Assembly (NCBI GenBank): GCA_017887445.1
Contig: JAGHIA010000119.1
Coordinates: forward strand, 1 to 41,591
Length of the DNA: 41,591 nucleotides
Source of the DNA: Fusicatenibacter sp.
GTDB taxonomy: Bacteria > Bacillota > Clostridia > Lachnospirales > Lachnospiraceae
Direction of reading: 5' to 3'
Shown here: piece after piece, positions 5,833-25,129 of the stretch
Layout of the letters: every line of letters begins with the position of its first letter
Position numbering within the stretch: position 1 is the stretch's first letter
Position numbers and translations under genes: made by a program
Notes under the pieces: model-generated
The model's input: the letters and a program-made list of their open reading frames with translations, nothing else
The model's database searches: none
What the model was told of the DNA's origin: nothing

Positions 5833-5843
5833 TTGAACGATTG

Positions 5844-6148: not shown

Positions 6149-7798
6149 CTAATAATACTCGATATTTCTCCGGCATTCTTCAAAAAAATCTTCGGCATCA
6201 CAGCTGTAAGTTCCATCTCCGTTTTTGTGGATACATGAAATCTTTTTTTCCCTGGCTCCTCCGTATTCGGCGATCTTCCACTGACGCGCAAGCCCTTTGG
6301 GTGGATACAGATACGCCCCTCCGGAATCCCGCTCGTATTTTGGCGGATTTTCAAACAGAATTGGTCCCTTCCTGCCGCCGCCCGGCCCGGTGACGATCTC
6401 CACATGTTCCATAGCCGGAAAGAACTCCGCCGGAAACACGGAAACGATAAAGCTCGACGGCAGAAGGCGTTCTCTCGTCTGTGATAAAAAGACGCTGATC
6501 ACCTCGCCGAACTCGCCGAAATAGAATTCCTTCTGGGGCAGGAGATATTTGTTAATCAGTACATCCAACCGGGTCCATGCCCAGTTTTGATGCTCCGGAA
6601 GGACATGGATCGCTTCCATCCAATATTCCGCCCCGCTTTCCGGCTTCTGCCACTGGAACAGAAACAGCCACATTCCTGACGGCCGCATCAGCAGATACAG
6701 TGTGTTTCGTCCGTCTGCCTGTTCCGGATGGAAATACCCCCAGATACGGCACGCATGAGAATAAAGCTGAAGGAAAAGACGCTCATCTTCGTCCCGATAA
6801 CATGCTGCGACGCCGCACTGATCCAGTGATACCGATATCCGTTCAAACACCAAACCATGCTTTTCATCCCAGATCTCCCGACGTTCCATGGGCATTCTCC
6901 GGTGTTCCTGCAGCCGTTCCCGCAGTCTCCACACGGGAGCAAATCCATATCTGTCCGCTTTTTTCTCCATTATGATCTGAAATTCCTGAAGTTCTGAAAG
7001 CCGGAAGGCATCGCCACAATCTGCCAGACATCCCTCCTCCCAGCGTATAACCTCTTGGTCCTTCCCGTCACGGCACACAATGTCCGCCCAATAGTAACCG
7101 TCTTTTTTTCTCTGGAATATGAGAGAAAAGCGGACGCAATCTGCTTCCGGGAAACCTGCATAAAAGATTTCCTTTTCCCTATACTCCTTTTTCTCGTCCC
7201 CCATCGCGTACCACCGATCGGCAGCCGCGCCTGTAAAAACATACGGATCGCGGCCATACAAGAAAGAAAACATCCGGTCCGCAGCCCGGGTCTCCGCCAC
7301 CATATTGAGGAAAGAATAATCATATCCCTGAAACGCATCCAGAAGTTCTTTGGTACCCCATGCAAGTTCCTCCTCTTTCAGCGGAAGCTCAACGGATGTC
7401 TGCGCAAACGGCCGCGCGTTGGTTTCCTCAAAAATCATATACAGCTCCTGCAGGCTGCTTCCATACAGTTCCTGGATCAGAAACGGAAGCGCCCTCCAGA
7501 AACGGCCGCTTTTCTCCTTCGGGCAGGCCAATCCCTCCAGCGCGTAAATATTCCGCCCGCCGATGTCAAAGCGCCCGGTAAAATATGTCCAGGCAAGCAT
7601 GCAGTAATTCCGCTTTGCACAAAAGAAAAAGTTGCATGCTACACCAGACTCAAAAACACTGCGGTTTCCAGGGTTTTCAACCGCCGACAACAGCGGACCA
7701 ACGCTCTCGCTCACAGAATCGTCTACATAAGAAGGCCGGAAAAACCATGTATAATCATCGTTTCGTGTCCTTGTCATCAATAGGACGTCAAATTCCAT
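6149..7798 (-). CDS. Unknown protein, last gene of the GTPase/SEDS operon
   Basis: 549 aa, soluble, no signal peptide or membrane helix, rich in Trp, Tyr and Phe. I do not recognise a domain with confidence. The N-terminus (MEFDVLLMTRTRNDDYTW, then a stretch ending YALEGLACP) faintly recalls the opening of the GAP1-like protein at 13853-16954 (a short beta strand, then a segment on opening or testing a record), so a divergent GAP1 N-terminal module is possible. The start at 7798 has GAGGG 7 nt upstream and lies 10 nt after the GTPase stop; an open frame continues upstream to 7957 but would overlap the GTPase by 149 nt. Probably translated as part of the operon. Confidence 0.75.
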   Translation of the reverse strand: MEFDVLLMTRTRNDDYTWFFRPSYVDDSVSESVGPLLSAVENPGNRSVFESGVACNFFFCAKRNYCMLAWTYFTGRFDIGGRNIYALEGLACPKEKSGRFWRALPFLIQELYGSSLQELYMIFEETNARPFAQTSVELPLKEEELAWGTKELLDAFQGYDYSFLNMVAETRAADRMFSFLYGRDPYVFTGAAADRWYAMGDEKKEYREKEIFYAGFPEADCVRFSLIFQRKKDGYYWADIVCRDGKDQEVIRWEEGCLADCGDAFRLSELQEFQIIMEKKADRYGFAPVWRLRERLQEHRRMPMERREIWDEKHGLVFERISVSLDQCGVAACYRDEDERLFLQLYSHACRIWGYFHPEQADGRNTLYLLMRPSGMWLFLFQWQKPESGAEYWMEAIHVLPEHQNWAWTRLDVLINKYLLPQKEFYFGEFGEVISVFLSQTRERLLPSSFIVSVFPAEFFPAMEHVEIVTGPGGGRKGPILFENPPKYERDSGGAYLYPPKGLARQWKIAEYGGAREKKISCIHKNGDGTYSCDAEDFFEECRRNIEYY

Positions 7799-7808
7799 AC
7801 CTTTTCCC

Positions 7809-9077
7809 TCATTTTTTATCGTATACATAATTCCGTTCCAGTTCATCCAGACAGAACCTGTTGATATTCTCGATATATTCCGCAATTTTTTCAGTCTCAT
7901 CGCGTTTTCTCTGGATCCTGTCTCCAAGCTCTTCCCACTGCTCTTTGATCTCCGCATTCAGGACTGGGACACGACCACGGAATTTTCTCGCTTTCTCCTG
8001 TATCTCACTCTGCCTTCCGGACAGTTCTTCCATCTCCTCAGTCAGTCTCTGCTCTTGTTTCAGCAGGATATCGCGGCAGGCATACAGAATGGCGCCGTCC
8101 ACGTTGATCGGATTTGGCGTTGCACCTCTTATGATTTGTGATACCCAGGTCCCTTCCACCTTTCTTTCCTCTGTCACTCCCTCACCGACTGCAGACACCG
8201 GTATGATTGCGAACGAGCGACACTGGTTTCGGATCCCCTGGCAAATTTCCGACGCTTTTTCGCACAATCCTTTATAGTGATCTCTCTTATCTGCTTCGCA
8301 CACCCCAGCATGATCGATTTTTGTGATAACAGCCAGAACCCGCTTTTCCTTGCTGCCATCTCCCAGAATTTCGTTGAAAATCAATTGGAACGTCCCTATC
8401 TTGCATCTTGTGTACCGCTCATTTGAGTCCCCACTCTGGCTAAGTTCTACAGCATCCAAAAACAGAAGCAGGTAATCACTTCTCGTAAGCTGCTCACGGA
8501 ACATTTCTCTGTCTCTTTCCTCTCTGCTTTGCCTTTGGGCACCTGGCACGATATCTGTCATAAACTGTCCACGATAATCGATAAATTCAAAATCACAATA
8601 TTTTTCTGATTTTCCTCCTTTCGATTCCTGCAGCGACATTCCATAAATTGTTGTCTGGCTTGTACCGGTAGGAAAATCCTGCACTGTGCCATCCGCTCTT
8701 ACCATAGCGATATTTTCAATAGAAGCGTATCCTTCTTCCCTGCCATACCGGGCATCCATCGCCATATGTAGCACCGTTCTGGGCTGCAAAAACATTTTCT
8801 GATAGATTGCTGACAAAAACACGGTCTTTCCAACGGTGGAACTTCCGAGCATGGTGATCCGAATCGTCTTATCATCCAGATCCTCCGCGGTCATCTTATG
8901 ATCAGCCGTCTCATGGTCGTCCATTTCATCCGATGTTTCCCGCCATTTTCTTCCTGCTTTTTCTCCGTCCTTATCCGATGTATCAAAACGTTCCTCCCAC
9001 TGATCAGAAACGTCCTGAAGTTTCTCCAGAAAGGAACCTATTCTGTCTCTGAACGTACTTTCCTTTTTTTCACCCAT
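7809..9077 (-). CDS. TRAFAC-like GTPase with C-terminal coiled coil
   Basis: 422 aa. A charged N-terminal arm (1-70) precedes a GTPase domain with P-loop GSSTVGKT (78-85), switch II DYRG (167-170), specificity motif TKID (252-255) and a SAVG G5-like motif. The last 80 residues form a long charged coiled coil. All nucleotide-binding motifs are present, so it should bind and hydrolyse GTP. It is one of two P-loop GTPases in this operon (the other at 16954-18663), as in the predicted 'double-GTPase' systems with GAP1 partners. ATG 9077 has GGAG 7 nt upstream. Exact family assignment is inference. Confidence 0.85.
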   Translation of the reverse strand: MGEKKESTFRDRIGSFLEKLQDVSDQWEERFDTSDKDGEKAGRKWRETSDEMDDHETADHKMTAEDLDDKTIRITMLGSSTVGKTVFLSAIYQKMFLQPRTVLHMAMDARYGREEGYASIENIAMVRADGTVQDFPTGTSQTTIYGMSLQESKGGKSEKYCDFEFIDYRGQFMTDIVPGAQRQSREERDREMFREQLTRSDYLLLFLDAVELSQSGDSNERYTRCKIGTFQLIFNEILGDGSKEKRVLAVITKIDHAGVCEADKRDHYKGLCEKASEICQGIRNQCRSFAIIPVSAVGEGVTEERKVEGTWVSQIIRGATPNPINVDGAILYACRDILLKQEQRLTEEMEELSGRQSEIQEKARKFRGRVPVLNAEIKEQWEELGDRIQRKRDETEKIAEYIENINRFCLDELERNYVYDKK

Positions 9078-9090
9078 AGTATTTCTCCAT

Positions 9091-9648
9091 CTATAAAAAT
9101 TTCTCCGTCATGGTTTCAATTCCACAGGCCTCCGCGAAATCCTGTTCCCAGGCCTCCCAAGCCTCCTCCGGCTGTGCAAGGCACACCGTATGCAGTTTCA
9201 GCTGCCGCCTCAGAGGTACATATTTGTCCCTTATGATGTTTATCATCTGCTTTTCATGCCCGGCAGTGCTGCCCTCGCGGAGGAGGATCAGAAAACACTC
9301 GCTGTCCGAAGCCATCTCTTGTCCCAATCCCCGGAACAGTCCGTAGCTCAGCACAAGGTTTTCCGGCGCGCTGCCAAAACGTCTGCCATCTCCTTCGTCC
9401 CCGGTGCCCTGGCGTTCCATCTCCTGGCCTGTCCTTACGCGGAACCCCAATGGATAAACGGCAAACGGCGATGCCGACGGAAAAGCACGTCCCACAACAA
9501 ACGCCTGCCTCACCTCGTGAAATCCTGCGTCCTCAAACAGCTCCTGCACCTGCTGGAGCGCCTGATCCATACGCCCGCTTCTCCCGTCTCCCGGAAGGAG
9601 ACAGTAACAAACGTACGCGGTTTTTCCTCTGTTTTCTTCCTTGTTCAT
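9091..9648 (-). CDS. Unknown operon protein next to the vWA gene
   Basis: 185 aa, soluble. ATG 9648 is chosen because it overlaps the vWA stop by 4 nt (ATGA) and has GAGAGGAAGG just upstream; the open frame extends to 9696. It has alternating hydrophobic strands (TAYVCYCLL, ECFLILL) and helices in a Rossmann-like order, and it sits beside a vWA gene, so it may be a degenerate vWA or a regulatory partner. No MIDAS motif is visible. Function unknown. Confidence 0.7.
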   Translation of the reverse strand: MNKEENRGKTAYVCYCLLPGDGRSGRMDQALQQVQELFEDAGFHEVRQAFVVGRAFPSASPFAVYPLGFRVRTGQEMERQGTGDEGDGRRFGSAPENLVLSYGLFRGLGQEMASDSECFLILLREGSTAGHEKQMINIIRDKYVPLRRQLKLHTVCLAQPEEAWEAWEQDFAEACGIETMTEKFL

Positions 9649-10241
9649 CCTTCCTCTCCTCTCCAGATTCCCAGATAATCGGTCAGACATTCCCACATGG
9701 GCTCATCCCACTCCTCTTTCAGCTGCTCCAGCGGCCACTGGACCGCCGGCATCGCCAGCTGAAACTTTCCGTACTGGTTCACCGTGTGAAACCGGTAGCG
9801 GCAGCGGGAATCTCCCGGGGTAAAGAGCAGGACGCGCTGCACGCCCCGTTCTTCCGCCAGGGAAACCTCTCCTCTCATGCGGTAATCCGAAAAAAACAGG
9901 ACAATCTGTTCCTCTGCGTTTCCCTCCATACCGTCAAACATTGTTTTCCAGCCGTTCGCAAGGTCTGTCTCATTGGTGGGTCTTCCCTTTTTCAGCTGCA
10001 AGGTCTTCATCCTGGCGAAAAACTTCCCCGGCTCCCGGGCCGTCGTCGATGAAGCAGCTCCGTTCTCAAACATCACACGCTCACTTTTATTGGAAGCGAA
10101 CCAGGTAAGACGATAGCGGACCTCCAGCTCCGTGTTCTTCGCAAGATACCTGTCCAGCTCGTACAGAAAAAGATAGATCATCGCGATACATTCCTTCATC
10201 GACATCGACACATCCAAAAGCACATTGATATCTCTTATCAT
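9645..10241 (-). CDS. von Willebrand factor A (vWA) domain protein
   Basis: 198 aa, a single vWA fold. The metal-ion adhesion site is intact: DVSMS (D10, S12, S14), a Thr in PTNETD (89-92) and D119 in LFFSDY. vWA proteins of this size act as metal-dependent protein-interaction modules inside the cell. The gene starts 12 nt after the kinase stop (RBS AGAGG 8 nt before ATG 10241), which suggests joint action with the kinase and GTPases. Partner unknown. Confidence 0.88.
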   Translation of the reverse strand: MIRDINVLLDVSMSMKECIAMIYLFLYELDRYLAKNTELEVRYRLTWFASNKSERVMFENGAASSTTAREPGKFFARMKTLQLKKGRPTNETDLANGWKTMFDGMEGNAEEQIVLFFSDYRMRGEVSLAEERGVQRVLLFTPGDSRCRYRFHTVNQYGKFQLAMPAVQWPLEQLKEEWDEPMWECLTDYLGIWRGEEG

Positions 10242-10253
10242 ACTCCATTCCTC

Positions 10254-11726
10254 TCAAATTCCGTGTGTTCTGCGCCCTGCTCTTGTCCTCTGCTGCAGTC
10301 CCGGTCCGGCAGTCTGCTGGCCTTCCACACTCAGCACCTCCAGCGCAAGTTCCACGAAGGACAGCCTGCCGCCCCGTTCCAGCCAGACAGGCTCCATGCC
10401 TTCCTTCATCGGAAAAAAGCAGGCCCTGCCGCCGCTTTCCAGCAGATATCCCAGCAAAAGCTCCTCGCCGTATTCATCTTCCGCCCTCTGAAACTCTGTT
10501 CCGCAGATATTTTCTCCATAATACAGCGGGACCAGCGTTCCCTGATACAGCAGAAAATTCAGTATTACCGGCGGATAAGAGCGCGCCTTCGTCTCTGACT
10601 GCGAAAAATCTTCCGCCGCGGACACTTTCATGGAAACGCGGAGGTACGGACGCGCCGCAAGCGCTTCCTCCTCATCGCCTGGTCTCTCCCTTGCCAGAAG
10701 CTCGCAGCGTTCCGAAAAACGCAGGAATCTCTGCAGGAACTTCCGGAATTCATAATACACATCCTGAATGGAGATTTTCAGCTCGTCCGCATTCATCATA
10801 CGTCCAAGAAGTTCTTCCAGTGCCTTCCGTTCTTCCTCCGGAAGCCGTGCCGCCCGATTGGTAAATGTTGCCGGCTTCTTCACGGAATACGGAGCGGCGG
10901 CCCGTTCCTGCCTTTCCGCCTCGTCAAAAAACGCATGCTCGTCCAGAAATTCATAAAAGACGACGGCCAGCGCGTAGAGATCCCAGTACGGCCGGCTCTG
11001 GATCGGCATTCCTTCTTCAAGAAACGTCTGGATCTGCTCCGGATGCGCGTACCCGGGGGAATACAGGAAGGTGTCCATAACGCTTCCGGTTCTTACATAT
11101 CCTTCAAAATCGGTGAGCATTACCTTCTCCTCATTTCCCTTTCCGTCCAGGACCACAAGAAAATTATCAGGCTTCAGATCCATATGGACGCCGACCGCTC
11201 CGTCCTTCGTATCCTGACCGTTCTGATAATCCATCACGCCAAACAGCATCGGCAGCATCAGCCGGTACTTTTTCAGCCGCCATTTCCGCAGGTCGTCCTC
11301 CGTCATCTGTCCGGCGTCCTGTTCCGCCTGCTGGTTCAGATACGTTCCAAGGCTGACGCCGTGAACATATTCCATTACGACAAACGCTCCCTGCCCGTCT
11401 TTCTCTTCCCCGTAACCATAGTTCTTTACAATATATGGCGAACAAAGCGTTATCTTTCCCTGATTTTTCATTGCGTTCCGGATCTCTGGCTCGCTGCCGG
11501 AATAATATTTGACAAAAAGCTCCCGGTCCGGACAATGGCATTCGCAGGCATTGCAGCGCATCCGGTCCATATCGTCCCCGCTGTTTGCCTTGCAGACCGG
11601 GACCGCGCGCGTCCACCATTTCTCCTGTGTCCCCCCAACAGGAAAGACCTCGTCCATGATCCGAAGGCTTCTGCTGCCTGCGCCTGAGGGATCCACCCAT
11701 TCCAGTATATCACCTTTCTTTATCAC
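10254..11726 (-). CDS. Ser/Thr protein kinase with Cys-rich N-lobe insertion
   Basis: 490 aa, no membrane helix. Kinase landmarks are present: candidate ATP-lysine K73 (LFVKYY), hinge VMEY (117-120), catalytic loop HMDLKPDNFL (181-190), DFEG (206-209) in place of DFG-x, an SPGYAHPEQ activation-segment end and WDLYAL with structural D249. The N-lobe carries CNACECHC (58-65), a CxxCxCxC cluster that could bind metal. A 150-residue C-terminal region is unrelated to PASTA or FHA domains. GTG start at 11726 overlaps the PBP stop by 4 nt. Likely phosphorylates operon partners or wall enzymes; no cognate phosphatase is encoded in the operon. Confidence 0.9.
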   Translation of the reverse strand: MIKKGDILEWVDPSGAGSRSLRIMDEVFPVGGTQEKWWTRAVPVCKANSGDDMDRMRCNACECHCPDRELFVKYYSGSEPEIRNAMKNQGKITLCSPYIVKNYGYGEEKDGQGAFVVMEYVHGVSLGTYLNQQAEQDAGQMTEDDLRKWRLKKYRLMLPMLFGVMDYQNGQDTKDGAVGVHMDLKPDNFLVVLDGKGNEEKVMLTDFEGYVRTGSVMDTFLYSPGYAHPEQIQTFLEEGMPIQSRPYWDLYALAVVFYEFLDEHAFFDEAERQERAAAPYSVKKPATFTNRAARLPEEERKALEELLGRMMNADELKISIQDVYYEFRKFLQRFLRFSERCELLARERPGDEEEALAARPYLRVSMKVSAAEDFSQSETKARSYPPVILNFLLYQGTLVPLYYGENICGTEFQRAEDEYGEELLLGYLLESGGRACFFPMKEGMEPVWLERGGRLSFVELALEVLSVEGQQTAGPGLQQRTRAGRRTHGI

Positions 11727-13264
11727 GTTCCCCCTCCTGTCCTTTCTTCGTTCTGAAACAGATATTCATAAATATCTTCCACTTCCGAAAACAAATCTAT
11801 GCCCAGACTGTTCTGTACTTCATAACGATTGATGGCCACCACATACCGTGGATCATCCGCCGGCGCGTAGGAAACCATCCAGATATTATTGAGTGTCGAA
11901 TCCTCCATATCCAGATCGGCGGTTCCTGTTTTCAACGCCACGGAGTAGGTCTTCCCGTTTACCTGGATATCTCCAGGAGCAGCATCCGCCATTGTGCTGC
12001 CGATCACAGCCGCCGTCTCCGGACTGGCGATCCGGTACGTTTCGCCTTTCGTATAACCGCTGCGGCTCTCCGTTTCTTCCCCGCGGAAATACTCCCAGGT
12101 TTCGGGATCCGTCTGATACCCTTTTGTCGTGTACACAGTCTCCACCATATAGGGTTTGCACATCGTGCCCCCATTGGCGATCCCCTGGGCAATCATTGCC
12201 GCCTGCACAACGTTGATCTGGAGATCCGCGTAGCCGTAACCGATCCTGGCCAGCTTCTCATTGGGATACACCGACGTATCGAATGGATCCAGCGCGCTCT
12301 CAAAGGTAGAAAGCAGCTGGGCAAAGTCGCACTCCAAAGGCACGCCGATCATGCACCGGTTGGCCAGTTCTGTCATCTTATCCCAGCCAAGATAATCGTG
12401 AGACATACGCGCGAAATACACATTGGACGAGTTCAAAAAAGCATTATGGAACTCCAATGGACCATACGTATTCTGGTCATTGTTTTCCACATGAAAAGGC
12501 CCGTAATCATCTACCAATGCGCCCCCGTCATCGATCACCACGTTCTGCAGTCCGTTTTCCACAATACCAATTCCGGTGACGATCTTATAAATGCTTCCCG
12601 GGCGGGTTGGCCACCGAAGCGGAAACAGCAGTTTTTCCTGATTTCCACCGTCGGGTACCAGTTCCTTCAACATAACGTCCTGCCATTTGAATGTTTCTTT
12701 TTCTGGCCATTCCTGCTTCACCTCGCGCAGCTCGTCGAGACTGAAAGAGGGCGAAAACGCCAGTCCCATGACGCCGCCGGTCACCGCGTCCAGAACCGCG
12801 ACGGAAGCGCGTGTTCCCGCCCCTTGCTGGATCCCATCCCAGAGCATTTCCTGCAGTCCGCAGTCCAGGGTGAGCTTCAGGCTGCGTCCCTTGCCATTGT
12901 CATAATCGGAATACCGGAGATCTTCGCTCATCCGCTCCATCAGATATCCGCTTCCGATATCCGTCTCGTCAAACCCAACGGTCATCGTATACTTTTCGCT
13001 GTCCCGAGCATACTCTACCTTCCCTCCAGGCTGGCCGGAAACGATCAATGTGTCGTTTCTGTCATAAATATCTCCAAGCGCTGTCCCTTCTTTTCGAAGC
13101 TTATCCTTCTCACCCTCGATCAGCTGAGGGACCTGTTCCTGTGCATCCTTGTCTGTAAACGCGATCCCGGACAGGGGCAGAAGAAAATAGCACATAACTG
13201 TCGCCAACGCCATACAAAAAGCGAACACAACGCGGAGACGCCGCTGAAACTTTGTTTTTTCCAT
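11723..13264 (-). CDS. Class B penicillin-binding protein (transpeptidase)
   Basis: 513 aa. One N-terminal membrane helix, a pedestal segment with a GDIYDRNDTL motif, then a penicillin-binding transpeptidase domain. Active-site motifs are complete: SIYK (S224, K227), SSN (279-281) and KTG (445-447). It should crosslink peptidoglycan and bind beta-lactams. It is short, like actinobacterial PbpA, and shares an operon with a SEDS polymerase, the usual catalytic partner. The frame opens at TTG 13273, but ATG 13264 is the likely start. It lies 26 nt after the upstream gene and overlaps the kinase by 4 nt. Confidence 0.92.
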   Translation of the reverse strand: MEKTKFQRRLRVVFAFCMALATVMCYFLLPLSGIAFTDKDAQEQVPQLIEGEKDKLRKEGTALGDIYDRNDTLIVSGQPGGKVEYARDSEKYTMTVGFDETDIGSGYLMERMSEDLRYSDYDNGKGRSLKLTLDCGLQEMLWDGIQQGAGTRASVAVLDAVTGGVMGLAFSPSFSLDELREVKQEWPEKETFKWQDVMLKELVPDGGNQEKLLFPLRWPTRPGSIYKIVTGIGIVENGLQNVVIDDGGALVDDYGPFHVENNDQNTYGPLEFHNAFLNSSNVYFARMSHDYLGWDKMTELANRCMIGVPLECDFAQLLSTFESALDPFDTSVYPNEKLARIGYGYADLQINVVQAAMIAQGIANGGTMCKPYMVETVYTTKGYQTDPETWEYFRGEETESRSGYTKGETYRIASPETAAVIGSTMADAAPGDIQVNGKTYSVALKTGTADLDMEDSTLNNIWMVSYAPADDPRYVVAINRYEVQNSLGIDLFSEVEDIYEYLFQNEERTGGGT

Positions 13265-13290
13265 AACTTCCAAACTTTCCGCCTTTCTGT

Positions 13291-13848: not shown

Positions 13849-13852
13849 GGCA

Positions 13853-16800: not shown

Positions 16801-16954
16801 CGTACGCATCGTAAGGAACGCTTTCCAGAACATTTACTGCCGCACGGCGGATCTTCGCGTAATCTCTGACTTCATAGCTGTTTTCCGGTTCTTCCACGGA
16901 AAAGCCCTGTTCCCTCGTCCTTCTTGTCGCAACAAATTCCAAATACTCCCCCAT
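13853..16954 (-). CDS. GAP1-like GTPase-associated membrane protein
   Basis: 1033 aa. A long alpha-helical, mostly soluble protein ending in four membrane helices (about 928-1031) after a charged EEDTEE stretch. The N-terminal 250 residues contain a strand-rich module with a 'test the record' layout that matches my memory of GAP1-N (GTPase-associated protein 1) domains; the helical middle would be GAP1-M/C-like. This assignment is from pattern and context, not a search. ATG 16954 shares one base with the stop of the preceding GTPase gene (TGATG) and has AAAGGAG 6 nt before it. The direct coupling to the GTPase gene supports a shared function. Confidence 0.8.
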   Translation of the reverse strand: MGEYLEFVATRRTREQGFSVEEPENSYEVRDYAKIRRAAVNVLESVPYDAYEENTCFLLYLEEPGCFAAVRAAEGGQVDRRVNMELTLCVPVRRGSDQGFDACYQKLFAWMCPWEQDPLHSCEHQRMAEACRRQGITQIWLEAFLIRWLRSVCAQQAETICICDSRVPELSEETMLLLAGVAYQFLPEERRRKYSFACHARPEKCHSSRLLVSQHQGDGIVLDLAKEPELKMDGRIDAPLIQSVVREFFQGNAGGRLLDGIDWYFIQAGDYDSLVKNFYYYWMDRNLPLTLTEEQFQKMQVELSGSRSEKAEELYRWLTAQRMKDTDGMDFWKAIDLYLRVPHQGADYKEEELEILWRLMTEHAAFREPMEGVFEECLQEVQNRSMPLYTALLRYGMSGGRFESVGIGLDSFLPVHPENKLEDIEQWLEWPESEAFLDNEQVQERLIGKIGGLLLETKETSRAKRLAKTGNKVNTSLFLKYRQQYLQQGTRQYMDAGDICGWRGYLETYKEFWGISPELSPLLAAEFTEFVRPMEVPLRRDQMKAVADIKNFFGRSAAELEKKSVSAEKQRLHHDAAYQIEEELRQVQRTLLGRFCEKGADAVGDYNLYRDELSALLRWQVGNDMGEPVFREARMLLEEIGQRYRADKMTRMSLEELLDYQIGQDTEDLDAAYEDWLNALALEIRNKTDAKRVREELEWRLPNVQVHGGAGVYKVLTALLDADAGNLSGRLSTAELSTKLSMREEESFLRSFWEEGIGIEDFSGIWKREKEGKGQRRILHGFIEKETDSVTRELYKIYRSFARGESSDREGKKLRQMWETMRLSDETAVRLFENLLRCSREKGRKHLDDLENLYDLMFVYCDGEEAVWDFVERLNPSAKERKTLQAIREEDKQYAEGSEEKKAAGKQARKTDWEEDTEESFLDWRQLILKDFLYGCLFGGILGIFEWIFSLLEPNSSVIPAVVTVAFFVLLGFVVYQIFLSFDRIEKISLSAMIFVIGFWAIQNCIPDAGAAPLIVGIVLTAGGVAGVILERR

Positions 16955-18663
16955 CACCTGCTCCTTTCCGTCCCTCTGTTCTGCGAAACCAGATGGTCAA
17001 GCACAAGATACACCAGCGGCTCCTCAACTCTGATCGGCAGAAGGGCGTTTTTCTCGTTTTCACGGTATGCCGCAATAAAATGACAGCTCGTCTGCCGGAA
17101 CCGGTTCACATCATACTCCAGAAGTCTCCTTCCGCCCGGCATACGCTCTCCTCTCAGCAATTCCTCCATGATCCTATCCCTCTCCAGCTTCAGATTTTTA
17201 AAGCCTTCGGAAAGATACTGCTCGTTCTCGCCAAACAGCAGTCCGTTTTCTTCGGAACGGAAAATATTTGAGTGGGCCATTTTGTCAATCTTGCTGAGTA
17301 TGATCCCAAGGTACTTGTCTCTTACGATCTCGTTCATCTCGGCTCCTATGTTAGATTCCAGCGTCTGCAGGATCTCGCGGCTGTCCTGTCCTGCCCTGTA
17401 TTCGTTCCCGCTCATCCTCGCCACAAGCTCTCCGATGGAAAGCTCCGGCTGCGAGAAATCTTCTTCGGTCCTTCTTTGCTCTTCCTCGCTGTATATCCGC
17501 GCCGTCTCCTGCACACGCGCCCGTTCCTCCGTCGGAAGTCCCTGGCTGGTGCGGTCGTCCTGCAAGGTTTCTGTCTTTTCTGTCAGCGATAAAAGGCAGA
17601 AGATCGCGTCCATTCCCCGGATTCTCTGGTTCAGCTGTGCGCCGCTGTCTCTGCCTGCTCCGGCTGCGTTTTCTCTGCGGGCAAAGCTCTCGCCGCTGTT
17701 ATCGTACAGCGCAAGCAGAATCGTGTGCGCTGTTCCGCCCTCAGTTACGGTAAATTTAAAAAATAACGGAGGAATAAAACGGACCTGCGTCGGATCCAGA
17801 TCACGCTGGCCGGACGCAAAACTTCTGGCGGCATTGACAAAGGTCCGAAAGGGCAGATCTACCGTTTCGTCCTGTACAGGCTCCCAGTAAATGCTGTCCC
17901 CATGTTCTCCTGCAGAGCTAACATTTTCCTGATTAAATCTATCTCTGTGGTAATAGAGTGAGTACAGCATGGAAGTCTTTCCGATTCCCGGCGTTGCCGC
18001 CAGATAAACCCGGAGGGTATCATAATGGTAAAAATCATCGGGGATCAGACTATAGCAATGAGGGCAGACCCGCCGTATCTTAACAATGATATTGTCCCGC
18101 ACGCCGTACGCGATGTCCATCTGAAGGTTTTCCGGCTCCTGGGCGTTCCTCTGTTCGAAAAAATAGTTCGCCGCTTCCTCATTCGCCTGGTGTCCACGGC
18201 CTCTGCCAGCGTTTATGTCCTCCCTCTGCTGTCTCGCTCCGTCGTCCGGCGCCGCTGCGCCTGTGAAAGTTCTGCTGCCGTCTCTGTCCTGGCGCATCAA
18301 TCCTGCATTTCTTCTCATGGTATTCCCGGACGGAACGCTGATTGTCGAAGGCTGCTGTCTTACGTCGGGAACGCTGCCGCCCTCCAGTATTTTTTTCTTC
18401 AGCATTCCAACCTGCTCTGCACTCAGAAGCATGTCCCCTGCAGGGTAGGAAATATCGGAATTCTGAAATTCTCCCCAGAGGCGCTCCTTCCGCTCAGTTC
18501 TGCATTCATCAGAGGTTCCCGTGTATTGTTTCAACGCATACTTCAGCTCAGAATAGGCCTCATTCTCCTCATCCGCGTCTTCCCGGCGGCACCAGTGCAG
18601 AAGATACTTCGCCTCGGCCTCTACAAGCCTCCCCCTGCAATATGGACACTGAAACTCTCCCAT
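16954..18663 (-). CDS. Zinc-ribbon TRAFAC-like GTPase
   Basis: 569 aa. CPYC (6-9) and CPHC (200-203) form a split zinc ribbon around a low-complexity linker (100-170). The GTPase core follows: P-loop ATPGIGKT (223-230), DNSG (321-324) as DxxG, and SKID (457-460) as the base-specificity motif. A large insertion between the last two motifs is acidic and helical. The start ATG 18663 is favoured by GGAGGG about 6 nt upstream; the frame is open back to 18711, which would overlap the previous gene. It pairs with the GTPase at 7809-9077 and is translationally coupled to the GAP1-like gene. Confidence 0.85.
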   Translation of the reverse strand: MGEFQCPYCRGRLVEAEAKYLLHWCRREDADEENEAYSELKYALKQYTGTSDECRTERKERLWGEFQNSDISYPAGDMLLSAEQVGMLKKKILEGGSVPDVRQQPSTISVPSGNTMRRNAGLMRQDRDGSRTFTGAAAPDDGARQQREDINAGRGRGHQANEEAANYFFEQRNAQEPENLQMDIAYGVRDNIIVKIRRVCPHCYSLIPDDFYHYDTLRVYLAATPGIGKTSMLYSLYYHRDRFNQENVSSAGEHGDSIYWEPVQDETVDLPFRTFVNAARSFASGQRDLDPTQVRFIPPLFFKFTVTEGGTAHTILLALYDNSGESFARRENAAGAGRDSGAQLNQRIRGMDAIFCLLSLTEKTETLQDDRTSQGLPTEERARVQETARIYSEEEQRRTEEDFSQPELSIGELVARMSGNEYRAGQDSREILQTLESNIGAEMNEIVRDKYLGIILSKIDKMAHSNIFRSEENGLLFGENEQYLSEGFKNLKLERDRIMEELLRGERMPGGRRLLEYDVNRFRQTSCHFIAAYRENEKNALLPIRVEEPLVYLVLDHLVSQNRGTERSR

Positions 18664-18679
18664 ATCTATCCCTCCATTC

Positions 18680-20419
18680 TCATTCCACTGTAATCTCAAC
18701 TGTGCCGGCATTCTCCCGCTTCCAGTATAACTGTTTGCTGCGTCCCGCAGGCAGGATACGTTCTCCTCTTACCTGCCTTTCATCCGCCGATCCGTCCTCT
18801 CTTGTCTCATGGATATGTTCTCCCTCGCTGACAAGCCGGATGGCACCGTCTCCGCCGGCATAAAAACGGATTCCCGAGGAAGCGCCTGCCAACTGGCGGA
18901 TAGTGCGGGAAGAAACGGCATATCCTTCGCTGACAACGATCGGATGACAGTCGTCCAGAGAAAATCCTTCGTCCGCAGCGCCTTTATTGACCCGGTAAAC
19001 CGTCTGGTCCATGCACACGGTGACGCGCAGTGTTCTGCCAAGGCAGTTTTCCCTTTCTGCCTGATGCCGTCTCTCTTCCTCCACTTCCATTCTCCGCGCG
19101 CTGATCCGTTCCTCCAGCCTGGAGATCTTCTCTCGGATCTCCCTATTCTTATCCGCCAGGTCTCTATAGATCGTCGTCATTTTCTGCTGTGTTTCCGGCT
19201 TTTTCCATTTCTTAGAATACTCTTCATAGTTTCTCTCATAAATCCTAATCTGCTCAATCGCCTCGTGATAAGCGCGAACCTCTGGCATTTCATCCAGACT
19301 TTCCGTTCTCAGCAGCACATCCATTCCCACTGTATCCGTTCTGAATCCGCCACTCTGCCGGTCCAGTATCTGTTGCTGCCTGCGATAGTCTTCCTGCCGC
19401 ATCGACAGCTCCCTACAGGCTTCTTTCAGTTCGTTATATTTTCTGCGCAAATTCTCCTGCTGTTGTATCAACTCGCTTTTTATATGATCCGGCGGAACCT
19501 CGGGACTTTCGCCCCCTTTTCTCCTGTGATATCTCCACGCCAGTATAATACCTCCGGCGCCCAAAAGTACGGCGAGCAGGATACAGATCATGAGAAAGTT
19601 CGAGCTGCCCATATCGACCCGGAGAGAATATCCTGTTTCCTGGGAATTGTCCAAAAGGTCTGTCACCCGAACCTTCAGTACGGCGTCTGTATCTCTCAGG
19701 ATGGAAAGCTCCCAGATCTCTGTGTTCTCCAGCTTTCTCGCCTCCACAGAGGCCGGCAGTTCCTCCAGCTCCACCGTAAAAATCCTTGAAAACAACTCGC
19801 TGTCTTCCCAGTCGAAGACAATACTGGGTTTTTTCTCCGCGTCATCGCCGGATGCCGTCCACTTTTCCGTCTTCAGGTGCGGCCACGATTTGATGCAGTT
19901 CCACGCGCTGTCTGTTCTGGTGAGCAGGATATCCTCTCCGTTCAACAGCATCACGGTGACGCTGCAGTTCTGGTAATCTTCTTCCGTCACCTTCTCCTGC
20001 TTTCCGCCTTCGCCAGTGTCTGACGTGTCCTGGCCGCCCGCGGCGCCGGAATGTACAAGATCGAAGGGCGTCCACAGATATCCGGCTCCATTTCCCGCAT
20101 CTGTCATCGACGCCACAACAGGCTCCTGGGCGACATAGACAACGCTCACACTCAGCGTCCATCCATCCTGCTGCAGCGTATTTCCCTCTGCGTCATAAAC
20201 CTCTGTGTACAGCCACAGATTTCCATTGTCCGTACCGTGCTCCCCCCGTGGGATCAGATAAATCCCCAACTGCTCCGGCGATGGGGCGGATGTATCCGCC
20301 GATACCGGCGCTTCCGTGCCCTCACCGGCAAACACCGCTGCCGGAAGCAGCGCCAATGCCAGCATAAGGGTGAGTATAACAGTACAACGATACATGGTTC
20401 TCCTTTTTTTCTTCCTCAT
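18680..20419 (-). CDS. Signal-peptide membrane protein with coiled coil, unknown function
   Basis: 579 aa. A clear signal peptide (RK-rich start, hydrophobic core, AVFA/GEG cleavage site near 31) leads to an extracellular beta-rich region (32-270), one membrane helix (about 273-297), a cytoplasmic coiled coil (310-460) and a C-terminal globular domain (465-579) starting LRVTVCMDQTVYRV. The topology fits a transducer that senses the wall side and signals to the kinase/GTPases. I find no FHA signature in the C-terminal domain. ATG 20419 has GGAGG 8 nt upstream; the GTG at 20434 is less likely. Confidence 0.82.
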   Translation of the reverse strand: MRKKKRRTMYRCTVILTLMLALALLPAAVFAGEGTEAPVSADTSAPSPEQLGIYLIPRGEHGTDNGNLWLYTEVYDAEGNTLQQDGWTLSVSVVYVAQEPVVASMTDAGNGAGYLWTPFDLVHSGAAGGQDTSDTGEGGKQEKVTEEDYQNCSVTVMLLNGEDILLTRTDSAWNCIKSWPHLKTEKWTASGDDAEKKPSIVFDWEDSELFSRIFTVELEELPASVEARKLENTEIWELSILRDTDAVLKVRVTDLLDNSQETGYSLRVDMGSSNFLMICILLAVLLGAGGIILAWRYHRRKGGESPEVPPDHIKSELIQQQENLRRKYNELKEACRELSMRQEDYRRQQQILDRQSGGFRTDTVGMDVLLRTESLDEMPEVRAYHEAIEQIRIYERNYEEYSKKWKKPETQQKMTTIYRDLADKNREIREKISRLEERISARRMEVEEERRHQAERENCLGRTLRVTVCMDQTVYRVNKGAADEGFSLDDCHPIVVSEGYAVSSRTIRQLAGASSGIRFYAGGDGAIRLVSEGEHIHETREDGSADERQVRGERILPAGRSKQLYWKRENAGTVEITVE

Positions 20420-20460
20420 CTCTTTCTCCTCCACTCCAGAGCGTGTTTGCTTATATGTAA

Positions 20461-22632
20461 CTATTCGTCCCCCATGAAGTTCGACCAGTCATCCTTATCC
20501 TCGTAGCCTTCAAAATCTTCCCTGGGTCCCGTTTCTTCCTCTCGGGGATCTTCTTTCCGGAAAGCTTTTTTCCGAAAATCTTCTTTCTGGAAACCTTCTT
20601 TCTGGAAATCTTCTTTCCGAGGATCTTCTTTCCGATAATCCTCCTGAAAACCTCCGCCCTGCGGCTCTGTTTTCCAGACCTTTGTATGTCCTCCCGGTTT
20701 TTTCCGGCTCTCTGGTCCTTTTTTCCTCCGGGCAGCATCCTCCTCTTTGCCCTGGCCGTATTCCTCCGGATCCGGACGTGGGATTTCTTCTTCCTCGTCC
20801 TCATCCTCCTCGTAGGAAATACGCAGCTGTTCCGTAAACGCCTCCATCCATTCTCTGTACTTGCCGGACGGTTTCTTTTTCCTGAGGATCCTTCTGGCAT
20901 TCCAGCTCTCCTGTACAGGATGCTCCGCCGCCAGCTCCAGAAGAACGATGCAGACGATGGATACCACCAGCGACGAACCGCCGTTGGCGATCAGCGGAAG
21001 GGTGATCCCCGTCAGCGGTATCCACTGACAGTTGCCCCCTATGATGATCAGTGCCTGCAGCAGCCAGGAAACTCCGATACCGATGCACATTCCTTTCTGG
21101 CATTTTGAGGTCGTCTGCAGAGCGATCTCCACAGCCTCCCGGAAAATGAGCATGTTCAGCAGGATCACAAAAATACCTGTCAAACCCCCAAGCTCGGAGA
21201 CGATCATCGCGAACACCATATCCGAATCGGCGGCATATACTCCCCGTTTCATCACAACTTCTTTGCCGTTGCCGAGAAGTCCTCCTGTCAGCATACTCTG
21301 CTTCCCCTTGTTCGTCTGGTATGAGTTATTGTTTGCTTCCTCCCCGGGACTGAGAACTCCCGCAAAACGCTGCTGGAGCTTATTCGTGGCTTTATCGATC
21401 TGGGCGTAAATCTTAAGGATCTGTTGTTGTGCCGTCCGTCCAAGGCTCAGCTTTCCTTGGCGATTCTTGTAGTGATCCGTAAACGCGCCGCACATACGAT
21501 CGATATGAACCGACTGTTCCAAAAAGGCTTCCTGAAAGAGCAGCCGGAACTGCCGGCTGTTTGCAAGAGTTGCCACTGCGTTCAGATATCTTTTCTGACG
21601 TACTGCTTCTGCCGATCCATCTGTCTCAGCAAACCGTTTATCCGGATAGGAACTGTTCACTTCCGCCTGCTGAAGCTCACGCTCAATAAACGTAATGGTC
21701 TTCGCCATATCGATGGTAAATCCGGCCTCCTCTATCTCTTGGCGAATCTCACTTGTGTTCTCCCGCAGCAGCTTTGCCAATTCCTCTGTGTTCGCCGTAG
21801 CGGAAAGCTGGCTGCTGAAGTTCTCACTGGTGATCTCCATGGGGATCCGCTGATACATCTGATAGCCTGTGCCCCAGACTGTTCCTGCCGCGGCCAGGAC
21901 CAGAAGTGTCACGGCAAGCGTCGCTTTGCCGGCACGGGAACTTTGAAACAGATACAGCAGGACCAACCCTGTCAGGCCCAGGATCAGGGCCGTTCCAAAC
22001 TCGTTAAAAAAAGAAATAAAACCTACGGTAATCCCTCCGCAGAAAAACAGAAACAGAATCTGCCGCTTCGTAGATACATGCGCCTGTACACACAGAATAC
22101 TGCTCGCCGTCAGGATAAACAGGACTTTTATGATCTCCGTCAGCTGGATACTTATCCCGCCAACACTGAGCCAGAGCTTAGCGCCATACTCCTCCTGTCC
22201 CCAGATCAGAAGGATCATGCAGCAGATGATACACAGTGCCAGAAAGATCCACATGCCCCGTTTATGTGCCATCAAATAATACACCCAGCCGTATCCGAAC
22301 CACACCAACACTGCAAGCGCCGCGGCCACGGCCAGGAACAGCAGAATACTTTTTCGATAGCTTTCAAATCCATCGCCCTGCTGCAGGATCGCCTGGATCA
22401 GCTGTCCCACGGACAGCAGTGTCATCGTATACACCACAAGACGGGGATTTCCCATTCGTACGCAGGAAACGTACAGTCCGACCAGCGCAAGGACCAGCAC
22501 CGGCAGCAGAAGCATCAGATACTCCATCATCAGCCGCTGCCGCCACGCCTGCCAGATCAGCACGCCCTGCACACCCACCGCCGCCATCAGAAGCGGCCAC
22601 GGCATTTCTTTGCTTAACCTTCGTAATCTCAT
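20461..22632 (-). CDS. SEDS-family (FtsW/RodA/SpoVE) glycan polymerase with insertion and repeat tail
   Basis: 723 aa against about 370-420 for the family. The SEDS core is clear: WLSVGGISIQLTEIIK (154-169), EFGTALILG (211-219), an SPGEEANNNSYQ/GGLLGNG block, ADSDMVFAMIVSELGGLTG (468-486) and TGITLPLIANGGSSL (541-555). About 150 extra residues (275-425) are inserted in the large extracellular loop, and a 150-residue cytoplasmic tail (575-723) carries 5-residue repeats such as KEDFQ/KEDFR. It should polymerise glycan from lipid II with the PBP at 11723-13264. ATG 22632 overlaps the upstream stop by 4 nt and has GGGAGG ahead. Confidence 0.93.
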   Translation of the reverse strand: MRLRRLSKEMPWPLLMAAVGVQGVLIWQAWRQRLMMEYLMLLLPVLVLALVGLYVSCVRMGNPRLVVYTMTLLSVGQLIQAILQQGDGFESYRKSILLFLAVAAALAVLVWFGYGWVYYLMAHKRGMWIFLALCIICCMILLIWGQEEYGAKLWLSVGGISIQLTEIIKVLFILTASSILCVQAHVSTKRQILFLFFCGGITVGFISFFNEFGTALILGLTGLVLLYLFQSSRAGKATLAVTLLVLAAAGTVWGTGYQMYQRIPMEITSENFSSQLSATANTEELAKLLRENTSEIRQEIEEAGFTIDMAKTITFIERELQQAEVNSSYPDKRFAETDGSAEAVRQKRYLNAVATLANSRQFRLLFQEAFLEQSVHIDRMCGAFTDHYKNRQGKLSLGRTAQQQILKIYAQIDKATNKLQQRFAGVLSPGEEANNNSYQTNKGKQSMLTGGLLGNGKEVVMKRGVYAADSDMVFAMIVSELGGLTGIFVILLNMLIFREAVEIALQTTSKCQKGMCIGIGVSWLLQALIIIGGNCQWIPLTGITLPLIANGGSSLVVSIVCIVLLELAAEHPVQESWNARRILRKKKPSGKYREWMEAFTEQLRISYEEDEDEEEEIPRPDPEEYGQGKEEDAARRKKGPESRKKPGGHTKVWKTEPQGGGFQEDYRKEDPRKEDFQKEGFQKEDFRKKAFRKEDPREEETGPREDFEGYEDKDDWSNFMGDE
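20535..20650 (-). repeat. 15-bp degenerate tandem repeat inside the SEDS gene
   Basis: Roughly seven imperfect copies of a 15-nt unit (AATCTTCTTTCTGGA-like on the plus strand) encode KEDFQ/KEDFR/KEDPR units at residues about 668-700. In-frame copy-number changes would alter only the tail length. Confidence 0.75.
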
Positions 22633-23432
22633 TGTTCTCCTCCCAGGATCTTCTCCATTTCCTCCATCATCTCGTCGTCCTTCAGCCGGAATTTGATCTC
22701 GACCCTTCGGGACGCGTCCATATTTTCCTGCTGGTTCTCATCGTAGATCACATTTTTATTGGAACGTCCATTAATGTTCAAAAGCCGCAGCAGCTCCTCC
22801 AGCTGTTCCGGGCGGCCGCTCCACTTCTGCCCCATCAGGTCTTTGCAGTATAAGGCGACGGTCCGCGCCCGCTCCTGAGAAAGGATCAGATTGTTCTCGT
22901 AGGAGCCGCGGGAATCGCAGTTGCCCTCCACAATGATCTCCGAGATAAATTCCTGATACTCCTCCCGAAACAACACTTCAAAGTATACCGGCAGAAACTG
23001 GGCAAGATACTGTTGTCCGGACTCCAGAAGTTCCGACCGGTTGGTTTCAAACAAAATCTCTGCCTCCAGACGGAGGGCTCCTGTCTTCGGGTCAAGGGTG
23101 ATATCAATGTTCTCCTTTTTCAGCTCCTTGTTCAGCGACTCGATGATCTCCGATTTGATGCCAACAATCTTTTTCAACTGTTCCTGCGCTTCCAAAAGCT
23201 TGTTGTTCAGGCTTAAATACTCCGTCCCCTGCTTTTCCAGCAGTTCCCGCTGTTCTTCCAGCTGCTCCTCCTGCTGTTTCAGCTCCTGCTCCTGCTGTTT
23301 CAGATTTTCCTGCTGTCTCCAGAGTTTCACAAAAGCAATGGCGATGACCAGAAGAAATATAAGAAGCAGCGCCGCCATCATGTCTGAATAAGACTGCCAG
23401 TAATTCGTCTCTGAAATCTTTCTTCTTTTCAT
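22629..23432 (-). CDS. MotB/ZorB-like membrane protein with OmpA peptidoglycan-binding domain
   Basis: 267 aa. One N-terminal helix (17-35) begins SYSDMMAALLL with Asp17, the place of the proton-carrying Asp of MotB, ExbD and ZorB. A Gln/Glu coiled coil (38-90) links to an OmpA-like domain with VEGNCDSRGSYENN (168-181), LSQERA (184-189) and RRVEIKF near 242. It should form a proton channel with the preceding protein and anchor to the wall. ATG 23432 and the stop at 22629 each overlap the neighbour by 4 nt. Zorya ZorB is the closest architecture I know, but the rest of Zorya is absent here. Confidence 0.9.
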   Translation of the reverse strand: MKRRKISETNYWQSYSDMMAALLLIFLLVIAIAFVKLWRQQENLKQQEQELKQQEEQLEEQRELLEKQGTEYLSLNNKLLEAQEQLKKIVGIKSEIIESLNKELKKENIDITLDPKTGALRLEAEILFETNRSELLESGQQYLAQFLPVYFEVLFREEYQEFISEIIVEGNCDSRGSYENNLILSQERARTVALYCKDLMGQKWSGRPEQLEELLRLLNINGRSNKNVIYDENQQENMDASRRVEIKFRLKDDEMMEEMEKILGGEQ

Positions 23433-25129
23433 TCCAGCTCATCCTCCCGGTCCTCTGGGTCCTTCTTTCTCCATGAGACACTGCGCCTGCACTTCTGCAG
23501 AAACGTCATCTCCCGTTCTTCCTGGATCATGCCGATCAGCTGCCGCAGCAGTTCATTTGTCTCGCTTTGCATTTCCACGGACTGTATACTGTTGTTTTCT
23601 TCCTTTTTCTCCTGCCTCTTTTCTGTCTGGCTCTGTTCAAGAAGCATGTTGGCTGTCTTCTGGTATCTCTGTGTCGCCGCAAGCTGTTCCTGTTTCAGTT
23701 CGGTAAATACCTGGAATATGTTCTGCTCATATCTTCTTGTTTCTTCCAATACTTCCGACAAGATTTTCTGAAACTCCTCCTGATACTGCGTCATGGCACG
23801 GACGGCCGAAATATTTTCCTTCGTCAGCTCAGAGAAGTTTTGCTGCACCTGCTGCAGTCCGCTGCAGGATTTCATGATTTCCTGCTCATGCGCCTGCATG
23901 GTGTCGATCATACGTTTCTGTACCTGCATACTCTGGTACATCTGCGTCGTATAGCTTTCCACCAGCTGAAACGTGCTGCTGACATGTGTCTGCATATCAT
24001 TCAGCTGACGCATGTAGATATCAAAATGCTCCAGGATCCTTTCCGATTCCGCGTTGATATCGCGGGTGTCCGCCGCGGTCCTTCCAATCTCATCCAAAAG
24101 AAACGACAGCTTTTCTGTCATAGCCTCCTGGGAAAGGCTCAGGCGCTCCACGCTCTCTCCCAGCGTATTGATATGTGAATCCAGGCTCTGGCGCATCTGT
24201 TTGACAAATTCTTCAACGATATAGGAAAGGGATTCCGACTGCTCCGCGCGAAAATCTCCGATCACACGCTTTAAAGTCGTGTCAATACTCTGAAATACCG
24301 GCGTCAGCTGCCCGTTCAGCGCATTTGCGATCTCAGTTCCCATACCCTTTCCCAGTGCGTTTTCGATCCGCCGAAGGACATCAATTTCCTCCTGCTGCAG
24401 CTTTGTACCTTGCTCCCTGACGAACGTACCGTCCGCATTCGGCCGGTTCCGGGATACCGTCTGCTGCAGCTCGTAAATCTCGTCGCAGGTTTGCTGCACC
24501 TGGGCACGATAGAGGATGTTATAGATAACGGACAGGGTGACTCCGTAAATCGACGTGTAAAATGCCACCTGGATGCCGCTGACGATGCTCTCCATCGTGG
24601 CTTCGATCTGCTCTGCGCTGTCGAAGGAAAAGGTATCCATACTCATCACAAGACCAATAAAAGTTCCCAGGATACCCAGCGCCGTCAGAAATCCCGGTAC
24701 CATCTCGCAGTATCCCTTTTTCCCCCGTTCCAGCACCAGCTCCTCATCCAGTGCGTCCGAAAGATCCTTCTTTCCTCCGCCGTCGATGAAATGCTCCCAG
24801 CCACGCTCTAATACAGGGTCGGAAAAAGCAGGGGCGGCTTCAGATCCTGCTTCCAGGCTCAGTTCTTCCCACAGCTCCTCGCCCTGGTAGGAGGCCGAAA
24901 GCTCATCGATCCTTTGCCGGATCTGCCCGCTGTCCTCCGCCGCCTGCTGCAGGACCGCCATTCCCTTATATTCCGCCGCAAAGATCATGACCGTCATGAT
25001 CAACAGAAAAAACAGATTGAACACCATCGCCATCAGATTTTTTCCTGCCAGAAAAAATACCGTTACTCCCAGCAGAAGAAACAGCGAAAAGCAAAGAATC
25101 CTTTTCCGAAGTCTCACCATTTTCTCCAT
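23429..25129 (-). CDS. MotA/TolQ/ExbB/ZorA-like channel subunit with long cytoplasmic tail
   Basis: 566 aa. Helices at about 11-29, 33-52, 145-163 and 185-207 match the four-helix MotA/ExbB plan; the last two carry the ExbB core (PGFLTALGILGTFIGLV, then YTSIYGVTLSVIYN). A cytoplasmic tail of about 350 residues is predicted coiled coil, as in ZorA. It should form an ion-driven stator with the MotB-like protein and transmit force or signal through the tail. It is the first gene of the operon: ATG 25129, AGGAGGGG 8 nt upstream, promoter just before. Confidence 0.9.
   Translation of the reverse strand: MEKMVRLRKRILCFSLFLLLGVTVFFLAGKNLMAMVFNLFFLLIMTVMIFAAEYKGMAVLQQAAEDSGQIRQRIDELSASYQGEELWEELSLEAGSEAAPAFSDPVLERGWEHFIDGGGKKDLSDALDEELVLERGKKGYCEMVPGFLTALGILGTFIGLVMSMDTFSFDSAEQIEATMESIVSGIQVAFYTSIYGVTLSVIYNILYRAQVQQTCDEIYELQQTVSRNRPNADGTFVREQGTKLQQEEIDVLRRIENALGKGMGTEIANALNGQLTPVFQSIDTTLKRVIGDFRAEQSESLSYIVEEFVKQMRQSLDSHINTLGESVERLSLSQEAMTEKLSFLLDEIGRTAADTRDINAESERILEHFDIYMRQLNDMQTHVSSTFQLVESYTTQMYQSMQVQKRMIDTMQAHEQEIMKSCSGLQQVQQNFSELTKENISAVRAMTQYQEEFQKILSEVLEETRRYEQNIFQVFTELKQEQLAATQRYQKTANMLLEQSQTEKRQEKKEENNSIQSVEMQSETNELLRQLIGMIQEEREMTFLQKCRRSVSWRKKDPEDREDELE

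Follow-up and report, generated by a model that had tools for sequence, protein, structure and literature searches.

DO-GTPases and their GAP1 partners have been predicted to form conflict systems (Kaur et al. 2020, PMC7159879), and their activity against invaders is likewise a prediction of that paper. Its themes are tubulin (52%), HSP70 (14%) and kinase together with PP2C and vWA proteins (10%, actinobacteria only). Its main text makes no mention of FtsW, transpeptidase, penicillin, MotA or TolQ, the figures and source data lying outside this check, and a search of the openly accessible literature found no paper linking DO-GTPase/GAP1 systems to SEDS proteins and penicillin-binding proteins (PBPs). 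A DO-GTPase has been reported in some PSP envelope-stress operons (PMC11237479). Two other described systems are relevant here, the Zorya defence system (ZorAB with ZorCD or ZorE), which needs wall binding by ZorB (PMC11890865), and the actinobacterial growth and division locus fhaA-fhaB-pstP-rodA-pbpA-pknA-pknB (PMC6554272). In the present work, we analysed a 41,591-nucleotide stretch of DNA from the gut bacterium Fusicatenibacter sp. (contig JAGHIA010000119.1, called here the window), in which thirteen minus-strand open reading frames (ORFs), named A to M in transcription order, run from position 25129 down to 6149 as one operon.

The operon shares with the systems of PMC7159879 a CxxC-bearing DO-GTPase (E), a probable GAP1 protein directly downstream of it with C-terminal transmembrane helices (F), other membrane components, a second DO-GTPase (L), and separate vWA and kinase genes (J and I). 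With the actinobacterial locus (PMC6554272) it has in common a SEDS protein (C), a PbpA-like PBP (H) and a Ser/Thr kinase, and the related operons of other genera (called here sister operons) share PP2C and FHA genes with that locus as well, neither of which has a Pfam match in the window operon. On account of these PP2C and FHA genes, the resemblance to the actinobacterial locus is closer than an earlier note on this DNA assumed when it called that locus a partial analogue. The operon differs from that locus in that kinase I, compared with a transmembrane PASTA kinase, has neither a PASTA match (Pfam) nor a transmembrane helix (hydropathy scan) and in that seven operon-bearing genomes hold 3-4 further SEDS genes. 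To our knowledge, the actinobacterial rodA-pbpA-pknA/B locus contains no GTPase, GAP1, vWA or motor gene. Like Zorya, the operon has ZorA/ZorB-like subunits (A and B) that carry the conserved Asp and a domain of wall-binding type (PMC11890865); unlike Zorya, it has no match to ZorC, ZorD or ZorE and pairs its ZorAB-like genes with wall synthesis and GTPases. With middling confidence, we propose that it encodes a membrane-anchored accessory machine whose DO-GTPase/GAP1 switch would control a dedicated peptidoglycan synthase.

Wall-synthesis, kinase and GTPase genes of the operon

C matched the Pfam family FTSW_RODA (9.5e-38) and H the Pfam transpeptidase family (9e-29), PbpA structures being among the best PDB matches of H. 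Reading by eye found SIYK, SSN and KTG in H, the Asp of SDMVF in C, and HMDLKPDN and DFE in I, which we take to be the catalytic motifs. By sequence, C is a SEDS polymerase and H a class B PBP, both with the usual motifs kept. These motifs are also intact in the sister operons (SEDS 16/16, PBP 15/15), as is the kinase motif HRDLKPEN in 13 of 14. The SEDS copy of the operon appears to be dedicated because it comes on top of the 3-4 others in every operon-bearing genome (7/7). Kinase I matched Pfam Pkinase (3e-13) and, in profile comparison, the sister kinase genes (P 4.5e-13). In the same kind of comparison, J, which reached Pfam VWA_2 at 0.0016, below the cut-off of that family, matched the sister vWA genes (P 9e-8) and K matched the C-terminal part of a 424-residue sister protein (4e-10).

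Both GTPases aligned with seven DO-GTPases in hhalign (98.1%, P 6e-14, 282 columns for E; 96%, P 4e-9, 235 columns for L), and L scored 26.6 bits against a cut-off of 27 with Pfam DO-GTPase2 (5.6e-6). As judged from these alignments, E and L are DO-GTPases of the TRAFAC clade. E contains CPYC (residues 22-25) and CPHC (216-219), invariant in the second carrier described below and, from the sequence pattern alone, putative zinc ribbons. F lies directly downstream of E, as is usual for a GAP1 partner, and ends in four transmembrane helices. It matched Pfam GAP1-M at an E-value of 0.045. The proteins at its position in the sister operons matched GAP1 at P 3e-8 to 4e-8, and F aligned with a profile of these sister proteins including that of genome G204 at 4.7e-4, at 1.7e-4 when the protein of genome G460 was added, and at 1.3e-4 with a pool of GAP1 and sister proteins; in a shuffle control made for the sister profile only, the best of 20 shuffles reached 0.024. 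F is probably a GAP1 protein tied to the membrane through its C-terminal helices. The GTPases with a GAP1 partner that the earlier note had described are thereby retained for the two DO-GTPases, and at probable strength for F.

The structure model of D was weak (pLDDT 60.9), and its Foldseek matches, mostly of Ig-type and also of FN-type, had query TM-scores of 0.10-0.17. In hhalign, D did not match (0.58) the four small proteins compared from tubulin-type loci, where they occupy the FNIII position. Taken as a whole, the Pfam search that the note had suggested returned the channel, SEDS, PBP and kinase families, a weak vWA and a near-cut-off DO-GTPase2, and left D, E, F, G, K and M without any family at an E-value of 0.01 or below.

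Concerning the arrangement of these genes, the tight packing on one strand read earlier was confirmed. With the gene starts backed by homologues in the second carrier (7798 for M), the junctions from A to M are -4, -4, +41, +16, -4, +4, +17, -4, +12, -4, +13 and +10 nucleotides, that is, 4-nucleotide overlaps at five of the 12 junctions and gaps of 4, 10, 12, 13, 16, 17 and 41 nucleotides at the others; the longer overlaps of the raw K and M ORFs with the genes before them arise only because these ORFs use the earliest possible start. The second carrier, Candidatus Fusicatenibacter merdavium (genome G005, DXEK01000042.1), has all 13 genes in the same order at identities ranging from about 25% in G to 71% in B, the most diverged proteins being D, F and G. 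This collinearity indicates that the unit is more than chance and backs the view of one co-directional block inherited together. The one good promoter of the note, TTGTCA-17-TAAAAT upstream of A, is weak by itself: it is one of 21 matches where 14.8 (standard deviation 3.7) were expected, and one such pair is the chance expectation for a region of that size, so that taken alone it says little. What speaks for it is that both hexamers and their spacing are also present upstream of the A counterpart in G005. DNA composition did not mark the operon as foreign.

Related operons, control loci and trees

A search of 397 genomes of the family with the E profile gave four matches, namely the window, G870, G204 and G897. 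G870 and G204 carry DO-GTPase, GAP1-like, SEDS, PBP, PP2C, kinase and vWA genes on one strand, with a clear FHA protein as well in G870; G897 has another layout, from which SEDS/PBP is absent. In the genus of G870 (g694), E was found in 24 of 24 genomes, and in none of 37 other relatives of G870. Among the 21 of these 24 loci that were read (G958, G959 and G971 were left out), nine have all 11 genes in one order, four are short of one ORF call, and eight end at a contig edge with the order still consistent. SEDS and/or PBP was reached in 16 of the 21, the other five ending before that point, and the upstream neighbour gene was identical in kind in 15 of 16 loci examined. In genus g199, all three genomes have E, with SEDS/PBP in G204 and G947 and a cut locus in G948. 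Among 265 Clostridia, five genomes were positive for the E profile, and in G460, from another family, the GTPase, GAP1-like protein, SEDS, PBP and kinase (found by Pfam and missed by the custom kinase model) lie together. A contig scan over 84,980 species found one locus, but its silence means little because just two short N-terminal patterns were used.

In all, SEDS/PBP adjoins a DO-GTPase in four genera and two families, and the core that recurs across the three further genera comprises DO-GTPase, GAP1-like protein, SEDS, PBP and kinase, joined in most cases by vWA, FHA and PP2C. Every related SEDS/PBP pair found was adjoined by a GTPase, where the earlier note had regarded pairs without GTPases as the evidence that would speak against it. 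In the comparison across Clostridia that it had suggested, the core with SEDS/PBP recurred, and all 13 genes in one order were seen in the window and G005. Like the ZorAB-like pair, L and M were observed in no operon other than the two of Fusicatenibacter. As to the surroundings of the G204 operon, its first gene (L121, 451-3108), in front of the GTPase, encodes a sensor-like protein of 885 residues that begins like a signal peptide and contains a vWA domain. The gene immediately downstream of the operon (L120, 363-5318) encodes a 1651-residue helicase in which DUF4011 and an endonuclease-type domain (MTES_1575) were recognised.

Sixteen further loci that matched DO-GTPase2, GAP1-M or the E profile served as controls, and SEDS/PBP or a kinase of the operon kind was found in none of them. 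One control (G399) is below the DO-GTPase2 cut-off and may not be a DO-GTPase, three are short (4-12 kb), and the SEDS, PBP and kinase models were partly built from the positive loci, of which only G460 is independent. In the SEDS tree, the seven operon proteins were separated (support 100/99) from 29 SEDS proteins encoded elsewhere in those genomes, and the GTPase tree united the 11 SEDS-linked proteins of Lachnospiraceae (99/99). In both trees, G204 joined the window pair and G947 joined g694; this agreement of the SEDS and GTPase branching orders fits joint inheritance. It is highly improbable, in our estimation, that there is no single machine and that several unrelated modules sit behind one promoter by accident or for reasons of dosage. 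The restriction of ZorAB, L and M to the two Fusicatenibacter operons and of PP2C and FHA to the sister operons would agree with such an assembly, whereas the 13 collinear genes at about 25-71% identity, the agreement of the two trees and the lack of SEDS/PBP in all 16 control loci argue for a unit.

The common denominator, a DO-GTPase/GAP1 pair with a dedicated SEDS-PBP pair and a kinase, points to GTPase-controlled wall synthesis, and its recurrence in relatives that lack the motor suggests a system for building wall under GTPase control. We also regard as improbable, though less so than a chance assembly of modules, that the operon encodes a wall synthase for development or shape (septum, pole or spore) in which the GTPases serve without any sensing of stress or phage. 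In favour of this role, the set of SEDS, PBP, PP2C, kinase and FHA resembles the actinobacterial pstP-rodA-pbpA-pknAB genes (PMC6554272), and E is present throughout g694; against it, the operon was not found in five of seven Fusicatenibacter genomes, and sensor-like ectodomains (D and the vWA domain of the first G204 gene) and rapid divergence would be unusual for this role.

Table 1. Positions of the promoter-like sequence and of genes A to M in the window
Feature	Position	Strand	Basis
Promoter, TTGTCA, 17 nucleotides, TAAAAT	25182..25210	-	Hexamers and spacing repeated upstream of same gene in G005
A, ZorA/MotA-like channel subunit, long coiled-coil tail	23429..25129	-	Pfam, PADLOC, NCBIfam, structure matches
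B, ZorB/MotB-like subunit, one transmembrane helix, Asp17 at MotB/ZorB position, OmpA-type domain	22629..23432	-	
C, SEDS glycan polymerase (FtsW/RodA family), enlarged extracellular loop	20461..22632	-	Pfam, SEDS tree
D, signal peptide, beta-rich ectodomain (Ig-like on weak model), transmembrane helix, coiled coil, C-terminal beta domain	18680..20419	-	
E, DO-GTPase, two CxxC motifs	16954..18663	-	Profile comparison, GTPase tree
F, probable GAP1, four C-terminal transmembrane helices	13853..16957	-	Profile comparison
G, small protein, one N-terminal transmembrane helix	13291..13848	-	
H, class B PBP, PbpA-like	11723..13273	-	Pfam, PDB matches
I, Ser/Thr protein kinase, C-terminal domain, no transmembrane helix	10254..11726	-	Pfam, profile comparison
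J, vWA-domain protein	9645..10241	-	Weak Pfam, profile comparison
K, counterpart of C-terminal part of 424-residue sister protein	9091..9648	-	Profile comparison
L, second DO-GTPase (DO-GTPase2-like)	7809..9077	-	Pfam, profile comparison, tree
M, protein 44% identical to G005 counterpart	6149..7798	-	

The ZorAB-like pair

A matched Pfam MotA_ExbB (1.9e-9) and solved ZorA structures (4e-13), its NCBIfam ZorA scores being below the cut-offs (best 74.7 against 100). B matched Pfam OmpA (5.6e-8), and its Asp17 occupies the position of the Asp in solved ZorB proteins. The PADLOC ZorB1 model gave 220 bits with B and 217-255 bits with three stand-alone ZorB-like proteins of Lachnospiraceae; since such stand-alone MotAB-like pairs score as high or higher, the PADLOC match is not specific for defence. 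A ZorB-like search was positive in 19 of 299 family genomes, and the 18 other loci consisted of 14 A-B pairs and four OmpA-type proteins alone. Around the 14 pairs, no homologues of genes C-M were present in the DNA read (4.5-20 kb). PADLOC ZorC, ZorD and ZorE matched none of the 13 operon proteins, so that the operon, having a ZorA/B-like pair without these partners, is not a Zorya system.

The earlier note had placed a ZorAB-like motor among the defining parts. This was not upheld: the motor was seen in the two Fusicatenibacter operons and neither in the sister operons, which belong to two other Lachnospiraceae genera, nor in G460, and it was therefore rejected as the centre of the operon. 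It is best read as a local addition of this genus. In Clostridia, the A1 search gave a weak partial match in G421. In three genomes (loci L042, L043 and L044), OmpA-domain proteins adjoin protein-kinase-like genes and small proteins, perhaps as a secretion locus.

Genomic setting, possible phage defence and proposed mechanism

The two Fusicatenibacter operons occupy different ends of a single gene block: the window copy lies between tRNA-Phe and a HAD gene, and the G005 copy adjoins the first ABC-transporter gene. In G003, the block is present and the operon is not. The tRNA-Phe gene (5759-5833) is on the strand opposite to the HAD gene in the window and in the same direction as it in G003, G004 and G006, a difference that we read as an inversion or an insertion at the tRNA site. 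Two long hairpins, 82% alike over 57 nucleotides, flank the operon (6084-6142 and 25416-25462). A Transposase_31 (YhgA-like) gene (4663-5553) lies between a GGDEF/EAL gene and tRNA-Phe; in G003 only about 200 nucleotides separate the GGDEF/EAL gene from the tRNA. On the other side of the operon, a gene upstream of the ABC genes (31579-34002) encodes an 807-residue amidase with many choline-binding-type repeats, and a dispersed repeat of about 130 bp occurs at 30741-30871 and 40698-40828 (82% between copies) and in many copies in genomes of the genus.

Several observations weigh against a GTPase-controlled wall synthase, or against parts of it. The alignments of F with GAP1 profiles were non-significant (hhalign, 0.14-0.25 and 0.11), significance at about 1e-4 being reached solely with profiles that include sister proteins. 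Three assignments suggested or considered for the remaining proteins found no support: profile comparison did not favour D as an equivalent of the gene that opens the sister operons (0.022, 0.5) or G as an FHA protein (sister FHA profiles, 0.28-0.42), both of which the layout had suggested, and M, proposed as a GAP1 relative, had no profile similarity to anything compared. The E profile also matched G897, G527, G554 and G444, where SEDS/PBP is not nearby; the GTPases of these four lie outside the SEDS-linked clade. With G460 included (12 proteins), support for that clade was only 61/67, and both the SEDS and the GTPase tree carried long-branch warnings. E was present in two of seven Fusicatenibacter genomes, two of the five without it being 75% and 88% complete. 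In G005, the kinase gene encodes 155 residues only, which match residues 354-490 of I, and the kinase domain is lost; the kinase, a step of the relay in the earlier note, is thus dispensable in one species. Finally, the operon is far more diverged between the two carriers (about 25-71% identity) than the adjoining ABC-transporter genes (93% and 81% identical), and together with the patchy occurrence and the two insertion sites this divergence resembles a conflict system more closely than housekeeping of the wall.

These last features bear on phage defence, in which ZorAB and D would sense envelope damage, the GTPase/GAP1 pair would fire and wall synthesis would respond by repair, thickening or misdirected growth, an explanation that we regard as possible and somewhat unlikely. 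Beside the patchy occurrence, the two insertion points and the fast divergence, strongest in D, F and G, it is favoured by the conflict-system prediction for DO-GTPase/GAP1 (PMC7159879), by the wall binding that ZorB must perform in Zorya (PMC11890865), by the helicase with a predicted endonuclease domain beside the G204 operon, and by PADLOC matches of kinase I to PD-T4-6 (9.5e-14) and other kinase models and, weakly, of L to LeoA (4.7e-5). However, the kinase matches look like generic kinase similarity, the ZorB profile is non-specific and the Zorya partners are missing from the PADLOC results. Moreover, no nuclease or toxin family exceeded its curated cut-off (Pfam for 13 of 13 proteins, NCBIfam for 10 of 13). 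Carriage on phages or plasmids was not borne out, E being unmatched in phage and plasmid records; a viral-contig scan with L, limited to two short patterns, gave no match. The presence in all 24 g694 genomes, with the same upstream gene in 15 of 16 loci, also fits core physiology. Physiology is favoured by this genus-wide presence, and conflict or stress by the patchy and diverged occurrence in Fusicatenibacter; both roles can be accommodated if the output is wall repair.

For a GTPase switch acting on a dedicated wall synthase, the following course may be proposed. D, which is likely a receptor, would read the state of the wall or another outside cue via its beta-rich ectodomain, and its coiled coil would pass the cue to the GTPase/GAP1 pair. 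The nucleotide state would then release or recruit the SEDS-PBP pair, so that wall is laid down where needed. The kinase, together with PP2C and FHA proteins in the sister operons, would tune the assembly, and vWA proteins would scaffold it. In Fusicatenibacter, the machine would also have acquired a motor of ZorAB type, driven by ions and anchored in the wall, as an extra sensor or actuator; the specific proposal that this rotary channel actuates the dedicated SEDS-PBP pair via the DO-GTPase/GAP1 switches is doubtful in our view.

The ZorB models used for calling Zorya match motor pairs that lack Zorya partners, a warning for such calls. DO-GTPase/GAP1 systems are known from prediction only, and a branch that keeps a SEDS-PBP pair offers them a concrete, testable output. 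A ZorAB-type motor, an envelope sensor in defence, standing next to wall synthesis could link wall damage, phage attack and repair. If GTP binding switches wall synthesis, there would be a GTPase route of wall control beside the known kinase route. DO-GTPase/GAP1 modules, so far mainly predicted conflict switches, would on the motor-driven proposal also regulate envelope growth, and such regulators would be present in every genome examined of at least one genus.

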